Made by a program: the position numbers and the translations under genes. A DNA stretch of 64,000 nucleotides from assembly GCA_001600875.1 (NCBI GenBank), contig BCLD01000002.1, forward strand, positions 909,646 to 973,645, given 5' to 3'. Numbering within the stretch: position 1 is the first letter of the stretch; each line of letters begins with the position of its first letter. Origin of the DNA: Solicoccozyma terricola. Taxonomy: Eukaryota > Basidiomycota > Tremellomycetes > Filobasidiales > Piskurozymaceae. Below the pieces are notes generated by a model. The model worked only from the letters and a program-made list of their open reading frames with translations, did no database searches and was not told the DNA's origin. Below are positions 6,652 to 57,654 of the stretch, in pieces.

Positions 6652-9012
6652 TCAAAGCGCCGACGCATCGACTATCCTCTGCTGAAGCAACCAGCCTTCC
6701 CTCTCTAGCTGAGGGCGAGCTGCTACCTCCAGCTGGGTGCCGGTGGGAGCATTCCAATCGGCGTTGGACGAAAATGCAAAAGTGGGAACAAGCCTAATGG
6801 GAGTCTCCTCGTAGTTGCCGAGGAGAGAACCGTACGTTGGCCAAGTTCGAGCGGTGTCTAGCTTCTGCTTGTTAGGGCTGTGCAGCGAGCGGGATGGTCA
6901 AAGCTATGGCACAGACAGCGAAACAACCTCACACTCACTCTCCCGTTCTGATGAAGCTCCCAATATACGCTCGCCACTCCTGCGCTATGGCTAGTTCAAA
7001 TGGCTTCATCACCGCAGTGGCGTTCTGTGAAGCGAGAGTCAGCCCAGTATCACTCAACACCGCTGTGTACGCCGCCATACCTGTAGATAGCTGTTATCCG
7101 CCGAATGTGTCACAGGAGCGAGTGGCACACTGACGTTCCAGTAAGCGGTTCCTACCGTCGGAGCATCGAAGCGGAAACCCCACGTCTGGTCACAGTTCCC
7201 GTACTGACACATTGCTCGATTGACGAGCCGTTCTGACCCAGAGATGCCACCTTCCCCGAAAGAGCCAGCTGCTTGGAAGAAAGCTTCGAGAGTGTTGGGG
7301 AAGAAGTTTCCGGTGCCCGAGGCATCCGCGTATGTCGCATTCAGAGGGAAGAAGCTGGCGTATCGCTCAATGTCAACCTGCGACACGTTGTAGAAGCCAA
7401 GGGTAGTCGCATTCAGCTCAGTAACCGTGTGAGGAAGAGCAGCCGTTGCCTCGTCGGTGACATAGCCCCCGATCCATGGTAGTTTACTGAATTTGCCTTT
7501 GAGCCATAGGTTGGTAAGAGTGTCGGTGAGGGTCCTGCCATCGACCGTAGGGAGAAATCCGCCGTAGGGAAGACTGGTAGACATATATGAGCGAAGTCGT
7601 GACGGCCCTCAAAGTTTAGAGACGCCTACCCGTTTGCATCTGTCAAAGCGGCCAGTGCATTCGTAGCATTAACGAACATGTATGGATCCGCAGCGCGGAA
7701 ACACTCCATCTGTGTCGATGAGGAATTGCAGCCTAGGAGACCAGCTAAACGGTTATTGCGTGCCTACGTCAAAAAGAAATATCAGGGCTCCTTGTCGTGG
7801 ATGTTTCGTCTCGTGTCTCCCACATACCGAGTGCTGCTGCACAGTGAACATAGGCGATCTCTGAATTGACCTCGCAACCGCTTGCTTGAAGTTTGGTTTC
7901 TGACCATCATATAATGCCATCTGAGAGATCATTGCGTAACCTCCTCCCGATTGTCCCATTATGGTGATGTGGTCTGGATCACCACCGAACCTGCACAAGA
8001 CAATCAGCCATGATCATGGGCTACATCAAATCTTAACACTAACTGGGCAATGTTGGTCTTGACCCAGTCGTATGCTAATCGTGAGTCGAGCAACCCCGCA
8101 TTTGCGGGTTCCCCTTCACCCAGCAACTCATCTGAGGCAAAGAAGCCAAAACCACCTAAACGATATGCAGGATTTACAGCGCTTTGTTTGAGCAGATCAG
8201 TATACAGAACGCTTACGGATCATCGATAGACGAGGACCTCACATAAAGTTTTGGTCATGCCCAACCCCTGAGTGCCAAGCAGAACATTGAGCTTGCAAGC
8301 CAAATCCAAATGAACAAAAGGCACTCACAATCTGAAAAATCCTGTTAGCTCCGTCGTAGATGGTGTCAGAGGGTGACTCTCAATTGAATGCGCAAGCAGC
8401 TTACATTATTCGCCGCAGCACTATATTGGAGACCTCCCCCATGTGTGTAGACTGTGGAAGTGAAGGTGTAAGAAGGTAGCGACTAGGAATTTCTTAGCAT
8501 TACCTACCCATCACCGGTAGGTTGTCACCTGCTTTCGCGGACGCTGGCTTCCAGATCCAGAGTTTCAGGCAGTCCTGCTCAGGGTCGACTAATTGAGCAG
8601 CGTCGGACAAGCACTCCATCAAAATCCACTCACCTCTACTCCAGGACCCGCTTTGACACCAACGATGTTCGAAGCTCCTCCGAATTGGATGCAACGCAAG
8701 GCGTCATCACTGACGTCCGTCACAACTCCTGCCATGCTCTTGAGAGGGCGGGGGGACTTGAAACGCAAGTCACCTACAGGAGGGGTCGCGTAGGGTATGC
8801 CCTTCCAACTGCAGAACTTAAGAGTGAGTTGTATTCATGTTCCAAGGCGACACGACTTACGACTCCACTGTTCCGTTGTTCTGAAGCTTACCAACATAGA
8901 CTCCAGCATCTCCCAGATCTATCGTTGGGCCTGTGTTATTGCGCTTGTCCAGCACTCTAGCGTGCGAGTGCAGTGCAGCGACAGCAATGGCGATTGTCTG
9001 AAGGAAAAGCAT
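6652..9012 (-). CDS. Secreted type-B carboxylesterase/lipase
   Basis: Alpha/beta-hydrolase that cleaves carboxylic esters, probably outside the cell. Twelve exons join to about 572 aa, the usual family length: 9012-8861, 8808-8634, 8574-8508, 8451-8405, 8341-8329, 8267-8243, 8181-8044, 7990-7828, 7763-7630, 7573-7081, 7024-6939, 6877-6652. It opens with a signal peptide (MLFLQTIAIAVAALHSHA). Family marks in order are GIPYATPPVGDLRF, EDCLKLWIW, the oxyanion element THGGG, AYRLGGFGFF, NAGLLDSRLAYDWVKTNI, the nucleophile elbow GQSGGG, an acidic residue in YVTDEA and a candidate catalytic His in THSADN. The elbow is GQSGGG rather than the commoner GESAGG. The fifth exon is only 13 nt (8329-8341) and the sixth 25 nt, yet both are needed to keep the frame. 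Natural substrate cannot be read from the sequence. Confidence 0.9.
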
Positions 9013-17542: not shown

Positions 17543-19458
17543 ATGCGCCTTCCTCATCGTCTCCCATGGACATCGCAACGGGAGCTCATCGAATTGCATT
17601 CACTGATATGGGATGACTTTGATAATGAGGTCCTACGAGCGCGGGGGGTTGCACGGGTGAGCGACGGTGCGGTGCAGCGACACCGGAGGGACAATGGTGG
17701 CTAAACTTCCGCGTCTACCAGATCTCCATCTACCTATCCTCACCGTCATGTCCTCTGTTCATCCACCTCCTTCACTCGCTTCTCACCGCGTCACTCTCAT
17801 GCTATCCACCACGAACCTCCAGTGAATCACTCACCCTCCGAATGACTTACGCAATGGCTATTGTGCGATTCATTAATGGAATGGCAGACCCTCTTCAGAC
17901 CGGACCGTACGCACGACCGATCTCCATGATCGCACAACGACTTGGAATCCCAATCGAGCTCGTTCAACTTCGTCATCAAGCAACGCATGAAGATCTACCA
18001 TCTCTTTCTGTCCTCCGAGCAGGGTTATGGACTTGCATCGCTTACTTGCGAGATAACTCTTTTGGGCCTCTAATCTTTGCTTCTGACCCTTCCATCGCAT
18101 ACGGAACATCGACATCGCGTGACGCACAACGTCAAGATCTGTCTAATACCCTATCCTCACTCATCAAACGATACAAGCGATTAATGAAGGCGTATTTCGC
18201 AACGAGGACATCCAAAGCTGCTTCTTCGACTGGGTCTGCTTGGAGTGGTGGAGCGGATTTGAGAAAGGTCATGAGAGAGATGGAGGAGTTGTGGAATGCA
18301 GATGACGAAGATGTTGGGCTATCTCGAGATGTGTTGGTAGATGCTTTGGTCCGGACAGGATGTTTGGTACCTCTTGCCAGGAAGTGAGTGAGAAAGATGT
18401 TCGCGCAATCGATCCAAGTCGCTAATATCACAATTCCAACTGCAGGAAACGCCCATCACTCAAATCATCGATGGGGAAGATACCTATGCCACCACTCGCT
18501 CAGATTCGGTTATGGAAACCACTCCTCCAGCTTGCTGCATCGCGGCTTTACTCTTCTTCGTCCGCGGAAAGCTCTGCAGATGACGACGAGGATAGGACCA
18601 CGCTCGCGCAGGATTTAGCCCTTCGCATAATTGCGATAGTACAGAGTCCGGAGCCTACATCGCCAACGGATATAGGTGTTCCTTCAACCACGCCTCCAAT
18701 CAACAATTCAGCAGATCTTGACGCAGACTTCCTCGCTCTAGATGCCGATGGTGGTTTGGAATTTTCGACGGACACTACGGCCAACACAATGGAAGCATAC
18801 AAAGAGGCCAAATCTTACCGATTCACCCTCATGACCTGGTTGACCCTCTTCTGGATTGGAGAGGAATCCGAGTTGGCCGAGTTGCTGTTGGACGAGACGG
18901 ACAAAGCAGTCGTTGGGAAAGCTCTAGCAAAGGCCTTACTCACTGTGGAATACTCTGCAGAGGCAGGTCCGACAGTCAGCAGGTGAGCATCGTGATGAAG
19001 CCACTAATTCCATTGCGAAGGCTGACACTGGAATTTTGTGGCCGACGATAGTCTAAGAGTCCTGGCTGATCACCTAGCTGTAGAGGACGAAACGTTCGCT
19101 GTGGCAGTCAAAGCACTTCCTATCGATGCACTAATTCGGAATGAGCCCGCGAATGCAAGTACCGACGAAGACTTTCTGCAAGCGATGGAGGCTCGGTTGC
19201 AGGGTCTGTCTGATGTGGTAAGCTGCTGCGACGAGAGGTCTATACGTGTGTCTACCCAGACTGATTATATTCCGGCTCTCTCAGCTGCGGTCCAAGGATG
19301 GAGATGAGGAAGATGTCGATATGGATGCGGAAGACACCGGAGCAGCTGACAGGTCAAAGACGATCACTCCTCCGAAGACTGGTCAAACGGCGGTTGGCTG
19401 GACACTTGTAGACCCGGTTAAGTGGAAGCCATGCCCAATCGGAACGTGGTTGTCATAG
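17543..19458 (+). CDS. LAS1: LAS1, HEPN endoribonuclease for pre-rRNA ITS2
   Basis: Catalytic part of the complex that cuts the C2 site in ITS2 of pre-rRNA in the nucleus or nucleolus, partnering the GRC3 kinase. Five exons give about 550 aa: 17543-17656, 17722-18383, 18446-18982, 19052-19217, 19285-19458. The N-terminus (LPWTSQRELIELHSLIWDD) and the helix MTYAMAIVRFINGMADP match the LAS1 N-terminal domain. The HEPN catalytic motif R-x4-H is present as RHQATH near residue 120. The long middle region is alpha-helical and acidic, and the C-terminus ends in GWTLVDPVKWKPCPIGTW, a typical LAS1 tail (W-x-PCPIG). The first intron (17657-17721) and the second exon's start are assigned from phase and homology. 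It converges on the THP3-like gene, also an RNA-processing factor; this may be coincidence. Confidence 0.9.
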
Positions 19459-50876: not shown

Positions 50877-51881
50877 TCAACCAATCACCTCCCCCTCCAA
50901 CTCATCCAACAACCCTTCTCCAAACTCCTCACACATCCTATAAACCTCCTCAAACCCATCTAAACCACCATAATAAGGATCCGGTACTGATTTCCTAAAA
51001 GATCTAGTTGATTTATCGAATTTAGATGATGATCGAATGTGTGATGAGAATAATGATATTTGAGCTGTTGATTTAGATGATGATTTGATACGATTGATGT
51101 TTCGAAGACTGATTTGGGGCGTGGGTGGGTGGGTGGTATCAAGGTTATCAGGGGATGAAATGGGGGTGCGAATGGAGGACGTTACGCACTTGTCTTCGTC
51201 CATTGCGATTATATGTGTAAACTCTGTGAAATCATTCAAACGTAATTGTCTCGCTCTAGAGTTGATTGGTACGCCGTGCTAAATAAGTCGTAAGGTCGTA
51301 TCAGAGAAGAGCAGGTGAGGAGGGAAAAAAAAAAAAAAAAAAAAATAGACGTTTCAGCGTTTGTATGTCAGAATCGACCCGGTGTCCTCTTCCCCCTCTT
51401 CACACCTTTTTCAAAACTCTAACACTCCTTTTATCTGGTTCCTCACCAACATGATACCCTGCCGTTCCACATGATTCGATGTGAATCTTATTTCTTAAAG
51501 AGGGACGTTGAGATGCTAGATGAGTGACGAGTGCTGCTGCTATTGGAGATCGACTTGAGAAAAGGAGAAAGGTCATCAGTGAATGAAGATAAAAGGGAAT
51601 GAAAGGAAAGAGAGAGGAAGGAGGATTAACGTACCAGATGCTGTTGACCGGTTGGATATTAAATTAAAAACCGTGAGTCTAGGAGGGGGTTGAGGTCCGA
51701 GGCGGATTACACTCACTTTCTGCATTGTAAAAGGAAAAAAAAGAGAAAGGACAAAAAGGTTTCATTGATTTAGCGGTGAATCGTCGAACTCTATAAATCC
51801 CGGAGCTCACCCAAGACAAACCATCAACACCCTAAACTCTGGCTTACTCTGAGCGTCGCCGTTAGAAGACGTGGATGCCAT
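50877..51881 (-). CDS. LTP1: Low-molecular-weight protein tyrosine phosphatase with 3-nt and 6-nt exons
   Basis: Cytosolic phosphatase hydrolysing phosphotyrosine. Six exons give about 182 aa: 51881-51811, 51719-51717, 51640-51635, 51553-51406, 51278-51190, 51108-50877. The active-site loop C-x5-R-S of the family is VCLGNICRSP. Here its codons come from four exons: exon 1 ends in VCL plus GG, exon 2 is just AAA, exon 3 is CATCTG, and exon 4 starts TCGATCTCC. Together they spell G-N-I-C-R-S-P without a spare base. Each tiny exon has a CAG acceptor before it and a GTGAGT or GTACGT donor after it. Later marks are ESCGTAGYHVGEEPDKRSV, HGVPINSRARQL, DFTEFTHIIAMDED and the general-acid Asp in VPDPYYGG, with GFEEVYRMCEEFGEGLLDEL at the end. 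A serine/lysine-rich insert precedes VPDPYYGG. Confidence 0.92.
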
Positions 51882-52549: not shown

Positions 52550-55500
52550 ATGGCGTACACCGTCGTCCCTTCCGTGGACCCGGAGGACTCACCCACCGCC
52601 ACCACCACCACCACCAACATACCAAGACGACGAACACCACGATACCTCGCTCCGACTGTTCTCGCGTTTGATGTGATTAGATCAGTAGGTTTGGCCAGTT
52701 TGATTGGGTTGAGTGTTGTGGCGTGTTTGAGTTTGAAAGATGGGGAGGAGGATGGAATATGGGGAATACAGAGGGGAATAAGAAAGGATTTGTTTGGGAG
52801 ATTCGATGATTGGAAGTTGGAACTTGGATTGATTATTGTTTATGTGAGTTTTTCTTGGGGGGTTTGGTTGGGAGCGGAGTTAGCATAATCCTGAACTTTA
52901 CTCCCCNNNNNNNNNNNNNNNNNNNNNNNNNNNNNNNNNNNNNNNNNNNNNNNNNNNNNNNNNNNNNNNNNNNNNNNNNNNNNNNNNNNNNNNNNNNNNN
53001 NNNNNNNNNNNNNNNNNNNNNNNNNNNNNNNNNNNNNNNNNNNNNNNNNNNNNNNNNNNNNNNNNNNNNNNNNNNNNNNNNNNNNNNNNNNNNNNNNNNN
53101 NNNNNNNNNNNNNNNNNNNNNNNNNNNNNNNNNNNNNNNNNNNNNNNNNNNNNNNNNNNNNNNNNNNNNNNNNNNNNNNNNNNNNNNNNNNNNNNNNNNN
53201 NNNNNNNNNNNNNNNNNNNNNNNNNNNNNNNNNNNNNNNNNNNNNNNNNNNNNNNNNNNNNNNNNNNNNNNNNNNNNNNNNNNNNNNNNNNNNNNNNNNN
53301 NNNNNNNNNNNNNNNNNNNNNNNNNNNNNNNNNNNNNNNNNNNNNNNNNNNNNNNNNNNNNNNNNNNNNNNNNNNNNNNNNNNNNNNNNNNNNNNNGGGG
53401 GGGGGGGGGGGGGGGGGGGGGGGTTATCGTGTGAGGAATGTGTTTTCGGGTCAAAGTGGATTTCCTTCAAGGAAAACGTTTGAGAGGAAAATGTGGTCAC
53501 GGCAAGGGGCGAATCGAGTCAATGGTGATGGTGTTCGTTCCGTTGCTTTGACGCTGCGACAATATTCCACTCTGGCTCTGCGAGAATGTCGTTGGATGGA
53601 CAGGGGCTACGGATCTTGTATTTCCCAACAACAGACAGTCTGATGATGTTTTTCTTTTTCTCCCCCCTCCCTCCCTCCCTCCCTCCCTCCCTCCCTCCAC
53701 CAGTTACCTCCAAACGGACGGGAAAGGTGAAGACGGAGAAGGAACGATGATCAAACCTTGGTTCTGGATAATCGCTCTATTCCTCGGTCCAACACTCTCT
53801 TCAATCTCATGGCAAGTTTACAATTTCATGTCCACACGAACACTAGTCAAGACGGAGGCGTTGATCACTTCAATGTTGTTTCAACATTCGTTACGGATCA
53901 AGATGAAGGATTCGGTAGAGGAGAGTTTCAAGGTCGCAGTACCTACTACTACTACTGGTACTGTGACACCTACGATCGTGGTTGAAGAACAAGTGATCGA
54001 ACGTCCAGACGTCATAGATACGAGCGGTGATCGCTCAATCATTCCGGATACCTCGAGCGATGGTGATGCTAGTTCAACCATAAAGTCCACCACCACCACA
54101 CCTGCTGCAACCACCGCCGCTGGACATGGACACAAAGAAGCGAGTATCGCAGGTCGAATCAACACACTAATCAGTAATGACATCGAGTCTGTCGTCGAGG
54201 GTCGAGACGTCTTCATGTTCTTATTCTATGGACCTCTTCAAATCAGTATCGGTACCTACTTTTTATACAAAGTTCTTAGCTGGAGTGGTCCGGTTGCTAT
54301 TTTGGTAACAATGTTCACATTACCAATCCCTGGAATGTTGGCAAAAATCTTGAATAAAACTCAAGCGGATCTTTCGAGAGCTAGTGAAGCTCGTATTCAA
54401 GTCATCACCGAGGCGATAAACACCCTTCGTATGGTTAAACTATTTGGATGGGAGGATAAGATTGCAGAAAGGATTGCGGAAAAACGTGAATTGGAAATGG
54501 CACTCATCAAGAAACGTACACTATTTCGAACACTAGTCGGTACCGTGAATTGGTGCTTGCCTATTCTTAGTATCGTGTTGTGTTATGGTCTTTACACCGG
54601 TGTTGAAAAGCAAACACTCACATCGGCAAAGGTGTTCAGTAGTATAACCGTTTTTGAAATGCTCAGGTATGTGTCAGCCTGGGCCGGCGGCCAAAAGCCC
54701 CCCATTGTACTCACGTTACAACCCATTCACGCAACAGGTTCCAGATGTACATGCTCACCAACCAGCTCACCACATTCATCCAAGCGAAAGTTTCAATTCA
54801 ACGACTGAACGCATTCCTCACCGAGACCGAACTTCTCGATGGACTCAAAGATAATGCGCCCCCTCCGCCAACACCTGCCGAAAGCGACAATATATTCTTC
54901 CACAATGCGTCATTCGCATGGACAGTAGCAGACAGTGGACCTTCTCGCTTCAAGCTGCATATCGATGACCTAGAAATTCCTAGAGGAAAGACTACGTTGG
55001 TATCCGGCAAAACGTCCGCAGGAAAGAGTAGTCTGCTGCTCGCATTGTTGGGCGAAATGAATTGGATACCTGAGGGTCCTGATTCGTCGTTCAACCTGCC
55101 ACGTTCCGCTGGCGTAGCTTATGCAGCGCAAGAGGCATGGGTCATGGCGGACACGGTTCGCAACAACATCACCCTAGACAACCCGTGGGACGCTGAACGT
55201 TACCAAAAAGTCATCCACCAGTGTGCCTTGGAGCGCGATTTAGAACTCTTTGCCGCCGGTGACCAGACGGAGCTTGGAGAGAAGGGTCTGAATGCTAGGT
55301 AGGTCTGTCATTAAGCTGAAGAAACTTGTCAACCCCCGCTGAATCTATCCTTAATTACCCACCCAGCGGCGGTCAAAAGGCGAGGATCAGTCTCGCGCGT
55401 GCCGTCTACTCCAGAGCCAACATTCTCCTGCTGGACGACCCCTTGAGCGCTCTCGATCTCACGACTTGCAAGTGGGTGGTGGAGAAATGCTTCAAGGGCG

Positions 55501-57654
55501 ACCTCATGCGAGGGCGGACAATTGTTCTCGTCACCCATCACGTCTCCCTCGCCACTCCAATTTCCGACTACCTGGTGCACATCGCCCTGGATGGAACGAT
55601 TGACTACCAGGGAGCACCAGAGAAGGCTTTAGAATTCGAAGATGATGACCCCGTCATCGTCGAAGAGATCGTCGAGAAGGTGGAAGAATTCAAGGAGAGC
55701 GCCGAAAACAAGCCCGACCCGGAGCGTGACGCGAACACAAGCTTGGGAAAACTCGTGATGGAGGAAGAAAAGAGCGAAGGTCGTGTCGAGATGAAAACAT
55801 TGCTGAAATACTTTGCCGCCGCTGGTGGACCGATCTTCTGGACAGTCTATCTCGCAGACATTTTCATCGGTGAGTTCTCTTGCGCGCTTGGTCAGTCGGT
55901 AGCACAAATCGAGGATGCTGATCTGTCAACGCCATCGTTGTACAGGCGAGATACTCTTCGCTGGATGCGTGTATTGGCTTGGTTTGTGGTCCAGGGCGTA
56001 TGAAGAGGCGGAAAACACCTCAGATGTCTCAATCGTCTGGTATCTTTCCATCTATGTCGTCCTCATGTTGGTTCAGGTTTCTTCTTACAACTCGAGTGGG
56101 ATTCTGTGGATGTTTGGGTCCCTTCGCGCCTCTCGTTCATTGCACATCTCACTGGTCCAGCATATTCTGGGAAGTACATTCCGCTTCATCGACAAGACAC
56201 CTACTGGAAGGTTAATCAGTCGTGCAGGACGAGACTTCAAGGCACTTGACGGGCCATTCACTCAAATGTTCTCTGGATGGGTCGAGATCATTTGCACTTT
56301 GACCCTCAAATTCGTCCTTCTCGTCTGGATTGTCCCCATCTTCACCCCTATCGCTTTAATCATCGCCGTCTGCGGCGGATTGATAGGAGAGATGTACATC
56401 AAAGCGCAACTCAACGTCAAGCGAGAGATGTCGAACGCAAAATCACCCCTCTACTCTCAGTTTGCCGCAGCCGTCAACGGTGTCGTGTCTATCCGTGCTT
56501 ACGGTGCCGAAAAGACTTTTGTGAGCTCGCTTAGAGCTAGCACGGACAAGTATACACGGTGTGCGACGACATTTTACAATCTCACTCGATGGGTCACCAT
56601 CCGTATCGACCTTCTCGGTGCAGTGTTCTCTGCTACCCTCGCCTCCGTCCTATTCTATGCTGGACACAACTTCTTGGACGCCGCTCTCGTTGGATTCCTT
56701 CTCAACCAAGCGACTAGTTTCGCCGACATCTTGCTTTGGGCTGCTCGTATGACCAACGAGCTCTCGGTGCAGGCTCAATCTATCGAACGAATCAATGACT
56801 ACCTGGTAGTCGAGCAGGAGCCAGCCGCAACAACGCAAGGCAAACCTCCCGCTTCTTGGCCGACATCCGGTGAGATTGTGATCAGGGACCTGACGGCGAG
56901 ATACTACAACGGCGGACCAGTTGTCCTTGATAACCTCAATCTTACAATCCCCTCCGGATCCCGGATTGCCGTTGTGGGTAGGACAGGGAGCGGAAAGTCA
57001 ACCCTCACCTTGGCTTTACTTCGAGCTATTCCCACGACCGGAACAATCAATATCTCAGGGTTGGACACTGATGCTATCAACTTGAACGCACTACGTTCAC
57101 ACGTCACCATCATCCCTCAAGACCCTATTCTACTCTCGGGTACACTGCGCTTCAACCTGGATCCATTCGGCGAGCATGAAGACTATGAGCTATATGGTGC
57201 TCTCAATTCATCGGGTCTAGATTACGCAGGCGGAATGGCTGGTTCCTCCGGTACCGCCACCCCGACCGTCTTGACTTTGGAAACTCAGATTTCGAGTGGT
57301 GGTAGCAATTTGAGTCAGGGTCAGAGGCAATTGGTCGCTCTGGCGAGGGCGTTAGTCAGGGGGTCCAAGATTTTGGTATTGGACGAGGCAACGGCTAGTG
57401 TTGATCACGCGACCGATGCGTTGGTCCAACAGGCAATCCGCAGTCAGCACGGAGTCACCATCCTCACCGTTGCGCATCGTCTGTCCACCATTATGGACTA
57501 CGACAAAGTGATTGTACTCGGTGCGGGCAAGCTATTGGAATACGACACTCCTGCAAATCTATTGAAAAACTCGGAAGGTTACTTTAGAGCATTGGTTAAT
57601 GACTCGAGCGATAAGGCGGAGCTTGAGAGACTGGCCAACGGCGGGACCAGGTAA
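52550..57654 (+). CDS. ABCC/MRP-type ABC transporter, interrupted by assembly gap
   Basis: Full-size ATP-driven exporter of the C family, probably in the vacuolar or plasma membrane. Visible exons: 52550-52843, 53704-54666, 54738-55298, 55367-55869, 55946-57654. The front of the first membrane domain is missing in the N gap. What remains starts in [11 protein letters not shown]...[14 protein letters not shown] and runs through TMD1, NBD1 (Walker [10 protein letters not shown], signature [13 protein letters not shown], Walker [12 protein letters not shown], switch THH), a charged linker, TMD2, and NBD2 ([35 protein letters not shown], switch AHRLS). In NBD1 the Walker B acid is Asp rather than Glu, the usual degenerate first site of ABCC proteins. 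A serine/threonine-rich insert of about 80 residues lies in TMD1. Substrate unknown. Confidence 0.9.
52907..53396. other. Assembly gap (490 N)
   Basis: A run of 490 N bordered on the right by 26 or so G. ABCC proteins need several hundred residues of membrane helices between the first exon and the exon at 53704, more than 860 bp including the gap can hold with introns. The gap size is therefore probably an underestimate. Confidence 0.95.
53663..53700. repeat. (CCCT)n polypyrimidine repeat before ABC exon
   Basis: About eight CCCT units directly precede the CACCAG acceptor at 53703 and serve as its polypyrimidine tract. Confidence 0.8.

Follow-up and report, generated by a model that had tools for sequence, protein, structure and literature searches.

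Two consecutive microexons of 3 and 6 nucleotides predicted to complete the catalytic loop of a low-molecular-weight phosphatase in Solicoccozyma terricola

Exons of 1 to 6 nucleotides (nt), an adjacent pair of microexons, and a microexon that acts as a switch in a fungus are all in print. A constitutive 1-nt exon is reported for Arabidopsis APC11 (PMC4674806), and the Fusarium CYP621A P450 genes are reported to carry a 1-nt exon, based on 20 orthologs and RNA reads in two species (PMC12940212). Plant microexons are given as 1 to 15 nt long and often unannotated, and rice has an adjacent pair of 5 and 12 nt (PMC8831610). Exons of 3 nt are listed for Drosophila homothorax, troponin T, and rodent NCAM, some of them alternatively spliced, together with two 5-bp exons in Ubx and two 9-bp exons in Fasciclin 1, whose adjacency is not stated in the excerpted text (PMC7392893). 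For the P450 genes of Phanerochaete chrysosporium, the shortest microexon is given as 6 bp (PMC1184071).

Here we describe a predicted low-molecular-weight (LMW) phosphatase gene of the active type (gene 1), in which nine central nucleotides of the catalytic loop are very probably supplied by a 3-nt and a 6-nt microexon that follow one another and are routinely included. It lies within a 64,000-nt stretch of Solicoccozyma terricola DNA, the whole of which we call the window. Like gene 1, Fusarium CYP621A is fungal, is hard to annotate, and has an ultra-short exon that completes a conserved motif (PMC12940212). That exon is single and 1 nt long, whereas gene 1 has a 3-nt and a 6-nt exon in succession within a catalytic loop, the arrangement recurs in a diverged second copy, and the transcript match is at the protein level only. 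APC11 and the plant microexons are likewise tiny and routinely included (PMC4674806, PMC8831610), but they belong to another kingdom and other genes, and the pair in gene 1 totals 9 nt and is predicted to form an active site. The 3-nt exons of homothorax, troponin T, and NCAM fall in the same size class but are given singly in the excerpted text, and micro-Ex8 of hth sits inside a longer alternative exon (PMC7392893). P. chrysosporium, too, is a basidiomycete with short introns and microexons, and the excerpted text of PMC1184071 reports no catalytic-loop pair. The original prediction called a 3-nt exon near the smallest known; the size stands, and the rarity is tempered by the constitutive 1-nt exons reported in PMC4674806 and PMC12940212. 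We found no paper in the open-licence PMC literature linking microexons to low-molecular-weight tyrosine phosphatases. Apparently new are a microexon pair that builds a catalytic loop, the seeming survival of that pair through a gene duplication, and a 6-nt exon that holds the residue at loop position PX5 (Ile or Thr).

Gene 1 occupies window positions 51881 to 50877 on the minus strand and has six exons over 1005 nt from start to stop. Exon 1 (51811..51881, 71 nt) runs from the start codon to ...MVCLG and ends with GG, in phase 2, at the donor GTGAGC. Exon 2 (51717..51719, 3 nt) is AAA, the third base of a Gly codon and the first two bases of an Asn codon of the catalytic loop. Exon 3 (51635..51640, 6 nt) is CATCTG, which supplies the last base of Asn, the full Ile codon, and the first two bases of Cys. 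The Ile codon, ATC, is the only full codon in this exon and encodes PX5. Exon 4 (51406..51553, 148 nt) begins RSPIAAALV with the invariant Arg-Ser and is followed by exon 5 (51190..51278, 89 nt; HGVPINSRARQ...AMDED) and by exon 6 (50877..51108, 232 nt), which holds the stop codon and the D-loop DPYYGG with the general-acid Asp. The mature product is 182 residues long; its catalytic loop reads CLGNICRSP and its acid loop DPYYGG.

The five introns are 91, 76, 81, 127, and 81 nt long. Retention of intron 1 (51720..51810, GTGAGC...CAG) or intron 2 (51641..51716, GTGAGT...CAG) would lead to a stop after 24 or 25 residues, respectively, and no match to YTRAY, the branch-site pattern applied here, occurs in intron 1. 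Retaining intron 3 or intron 5 would leave the frame intact. Intron 3 (51554..51634, GTACGT...AAG) would then add 27 residues inside the loop. Intron 4 (51279..51405) runs GTGTGA...TAG. Intron 5 (51109..51189) is free of stops, so a naive read-through model of the gene has 209 residues rather than the 182 of the mature protein; the sequence of this intron is missing from P0001, the protein from a close relative discussed below.

Exons 2 and 3 are microexons in the usual sense, that is, short internal exons with AG/GT borders. The borders are CAG/AAA/GTGAGT and CAG/CATCTG/GTACGT, and the phases are GG/A AA/C ATC TG/T CGA (slashes mark exon borders); acceptors, donors, and phases can be read directly in the sequence as originally predicted. 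We enumerated all GT-AG and GC-AG parses with introns of at least 20 nt, and exactly one splicing of gene 1 gives MVCLGNICRSPIAAALVTHL. The C-x5-R-S loop appears as CLGNICRS only when both microexons are joined, and every form that skips one or both breaks C-x5-R, in agreement with the earlier claim that both are needed. The assembly of an LMW phosphatase loop from AAA and CATCTG, also proposed there, is supported by this unique parse, by P0001, and by a second gene in the same genome.

The 209-residue read-through model scored 105.2 bits against the Pfam LMWPc profile (PF01451; cut-off, 23.2 bits), and the score fell to 84.4 bits when the microexons were left out. P0001 scored 123.9 bits. The general-acid motif in gene 1 reads VPDPYYGG, with D149 and P150 invariant in 13 of 13 rows of alignment A1. 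The top two solved-structure matches were 5O7B (slr0328; 94.8 bits) and 1D1P (92.0 bits), the latter of which we take to be yeast LTP1; both belong to the same family as gene 1, with C-x5-R-S and a D-loop. The NCBIfam profile search returned matches far below the cut-off only. As a separate observation, exon 6 (window 51108-50877, minus strand) encodes a Ser/Lys/Arg-rich stretch, SSHIRSSSKFDKSTRSFRK, immediately before the acid loop. This stretch is longer than in the alignment A1 rows other than P0001, and the second gene shares part of it.

We searched for proteins related to gene 1 by scoring the 7,998 candidates that shared the most words, of which the best 120 were listed. The best match, P0001, is a protein of 181 residues from a single 985-bp contig with the source tag "lgn," presumably denoting the Logan assemblies. 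Aligned over 182 positions with one gap, the spliced gene 1 product and P0001 share 174 identical residues, and P0001 reads CLGNICRSP unbroken, with Asn at the place of exon 2. Since the 985-bp contig is shorter than the 1005-nt gene, P0001 is taken as the spliced transcript of a close relative, with the nucleotide joins deduced from the protein. The next matches after P0001 are about 42% identical, and the named ones among the matches listed are mostly mushrooms and rust-relative yeasts. The complete loop CLGNICRS occurs in 118 of the 120 listed relatives, all 118 of which have Asn at the exon 2 place. The other two are differently damaged models: P0030 (Cyclocybe aegerita) has the damaged loop VVWNICRS, and P0081 (Laccaria bicolor) is a partial model starting LGNICRS. 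Damage next to CLG in these two may mark an exon border near the intron 1 place in other basidiomycetes.

The same 3+6 layout is predicted in a second gene. A search with the gene 1 protein across the 23.9-Mb genome (33 contigs) gave three matches to gene 1's own exons and one other place, G000:C20:425782-426351. The LMW phosphatase gene there (minus strand; L003 1501-2300) has a 3-nt exon, CAA (C20:426481-426479), at the same place and in the same phase as AAA in gene 1, and a 6-nt exon, CACCTG (C20:426411-426406), with the Thr codon ACC at PX5. Its borders read GG/gtgagt..ttttag/CAA/gtgagt..tcaaag/CACCTG/gtaggt..cgccag/CCGCTCT, with introns of 76, 67, and 59 nt, and the spliced loop reads VCSGNTCRSPMAAA (CSGNTCRS). 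A single parse gives GN-x-C, and looser patterns permit two or three. An intron before HGV lies at the same place as in gene 1, a join that was made by eye. The assembled fragment spans the whole Pfam LMWPc profile at 93.7 bits, and its best solved match is 1D1P. We found no in-frame ATG in the 156 nt upstream of its MVCSG.

We placed the second gene in a tree of 47 rows, comprising gene 1, P0001, the second gene, and, taken at even steps, 24 of the 119 other listed relatives of gene 1 and 20 of the 120 proteins listed from a CxGNTCRS search. It clusters with gene 1 and those 24 relatives, apart from the 20 CxGNTCRS-search proteins, with support of 99/91 unmasked and 96/94 when the catalytic motifs are masked. 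One CxGNTCRS-search protein, P0223, falls weakly beside the group of gene 1 and its relatives. Masking the motifs brings the second gene together with gene 1 and P0001 at 98/96; in the unmasked tree it stands outside the gene 1/P0001 pair, and only 12% of the 200 bootstrap trees unite the three. Neither tree places the origin of the second gene within the CxGNTCRS protein group, a result that is not final, since the tree program warns of a long branch for this gene with and without masking. The introns of the two genes are unalignable, with no cross-gene pair reached by fewer than 10 of 200 mononucleotide shuffles. Read most simply, the 3+6 layout is probably ancestral and older than the duplication, and was kept through it and through long divergence. 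Such a layout, apparently stable through gene duplication, would represent short-intron splicing pushed to two consecutive exons, nine bases in total, at the most constrained place of the enzyme.

The residue encoded by the 6-nt exon differs between the two genes. In bacterial enzymes, PX5 is reported to steer specificity, with Thr directing activity to phosphoarginine and Ile to phosphotyrosine, and a Thr-to-Ile change shifts activity (PMC8001253, citing Fuhrmann et al.). The PX5 codon is ATC (Ile) in gene 1 and ACC (Thr) in the second gene, which therefore has the Thr that marks phosphoarginine phosphatases of the YwlE type. Its acid loop is DPYGGD, as in P0121 of the CxGNTCRS-search proteins; P0143, named an arginine phosphatase by its source, has DPFGGD. 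All 120 listed CxGNTCRS-search proteins carry C[ST]GNTCRS, a uniformity that is partly built in because the search picks proteins sharing exact words. It is conceivable, though we hold the idea only tentatively and rate it as rather unlikely, that the 6-nt exon serves as a specificity cassette, in which case gene 1 would be of the phosphotyrosine type and its duplicate maybe a fungal enzyme acting on phosphoarginine, produced by a base change inside the six-base exon. If so, since neither gene was picked up when the raw genome was scanned for the family, such enzymes may be wrongly counted as absent from related fungi. With Ile in one and Thr in the other, the two genes would make a natural pair for testing whether phosphoarginine phosphatases exist in fungi.

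Exons of 3 and 6 nt are unlikely to be recognized across the exon, and the short introns around them (91, 76, and 81 nt) would instead be recognized as units, by intron definition. Only 3 nt separate the acceptor of intron 1 from the donor of intron 2, presumably too little for both sites to be engaged simultaneously. Given this gap, the introns would be removed one after another. Such stepwise removal would resemble recursive splicing: once AAA is joined to exon 1, it would leave the donor AAA/GTGAGT for the next step. Stepwise splicing around a 1-nt exon has been argued likewise for APC11 (PMC4674806).

The original prediction further suggested that splicing could switch the enzyme off. Skipping exon 2 would give CLGICRS, skipping exon 3 CLGNRS, and skipping both CLGRS; all are in frame and all break C-x5-R, and the claim that loss of both exons keeps the frame and shortens the loop holds by frame arithmetic. 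Since introns 1 to 3 are all in phase 2, a missed exon would yield an in-frame protein with a broken loop and no frameshift. A regulated switch, with one or both microexons skipped under some conditions to give an inactive or substrate-trapping phosphatase, would fit these in-frame forms and the lengths of the two exons, which are divisible by 3 in both genes, and a glucose-dependent microexon switch has been reported in Trichoderma Xlr2 (PMC11121469). However, the multiple-of-3 size probably reflects common descent and not two separate origins, and it carries little weight because nine bases between phase-2 borders can be divided over two exons in eight ways, of which two, 3+6 and 6+3, preserve the frame. 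No skipped form occurs among the 240 listed proteins, of which 118 of 120 gene 1 relatives and 120 of 120 CxGNTCRS-search proteins have the complete loop. This absence is weak evidence too, because the listings rank proteins against a complete loop and P0001 is the sole close relative among them. SRRM_C (PF15230), a domain of the animal SRRM3/4 microexon program, had no match in the genome, which says nothing either way because the 14 control genomes were likewise blank. We consider a regulated switch unsupported and improbable; skipped forms, if made at all, would read as nonworking by-products rather than as a programmed switch.

A different 3-nt register is less probable still. Exon 2 could be TGA instead of AAA (AAAG/TGA/GTGTAA), which would give G-D-I-C, and AG/TGA/GT obeys the GT-AG rules in both genes (G-D-I-C in gene 1, G-D-T-C in the second gene). 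Against this register, the residue at this place is Asn in P0001 and in 118 of 118 listed relatives with a complete loop, and the donor GTGTAA looks weaker than GTGAGT, in our unscored judgment. We regard the TGA register as very unlikely to be the main splicing pattern, and it could still arise as a minor product in both genes. AAA is the preferred reading of exon 2.

We compared the microexon reading with chance by shuffling the sequence that separates exon 1 from exon 4, keeping dinucleotides, fixing its first 6 and last 3 bases, and allowing GT-AG introns of at least 40 nt. For gene 1, 1 of the 20,000 shuffles allowed NIC to be read, and none did so by the 3+6 split; 15 allowed GN-x-C, 272 G-x-x-C, and 4,668 the bare C-x5-R. 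The C-x5-R spacing alone is therefore poor evidence, and the exact loop residues, unlike the spacing, show that the gene 1 microexons exceed chance. For the second gene, the corresponding counts, each out of 20,000, were 27 for GN-x-C, 2 for GN-x-C made by the 3+6 split, 914 for G-x-x-C, and 8,269 for the C-x5-R spacing alone, so its support rests on GN-x-C identity together with the same 3+6 split. Support outside the shuffles comes from P0001 and, for gene 1, from the second gene. Coincidental look-alikes in a broken gene whose loop is truly missing would account for the bare spacing, but not readily for the rarity of NIC identity in shuffles, the agreement of P0001 and the second gene with the microexons, or an otherwise intact gene with DPYYGG, and are the least credible reading of all.

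Both genes were missed by a six-frame Pfam LMWPc search of the genome, which gave zero matches; 11 of 14 control genomes matched, all 11 of them prokaryotes. The microexons alone do not explain this, because introns 4 and 5 also cut the domain. There was no recognized tremellomycete name among the 120 listed relatives of gene 1 (the best 120 of 7,998, with many rows lacking a name), and either real loss or poor annotation may explain this. Finely split genes of this kind can make a protein family look absent, and they may evade ordinary gene searches.

An origin of the three loop introns by introner-type gain was rejected, since introns 1 to 3 of gene 1 each match only themselves in the genome in a search for near-identical copies (simple repeats and very common words skipped). 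Among 28 intron pairs compared, intron 1 with intron 4 and intron 3 with intron 5 of gene 1 were each reached by 1 of 200 mononucleotide shuffles; homology was rejected for both pairs, given their pyrimidine-rich sequence and the 28 tests.

The pattern YAG-NNN-GTGAGT occurs four times in the window versus 0.98 expected, and 3 of 100 shuffles reach four. The other 3-nt exon candidates were rejected: the sites at 18378 and 35120 resemble ordinary exon ends, and the site at 8323 closes a 13-nt exon in a carboxylesterase-like gene. This gene, named by eye (window 8452-8127, minus strand), has the 13-nt exon GATTTTTCAGATT (8341-8329) and a 25-nt exon (8267-8243), with a joined reading of ...HGGGLQYSAAANNDFSDWVGHDQNFIAVNPAYRLGGFGFF. 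Small exons may be common in the source genome. Near the phosphatase gene, on the plus strand at window 53747-57654, lie two long open frames resembling pieces of an ABC transporter, also named by eye.
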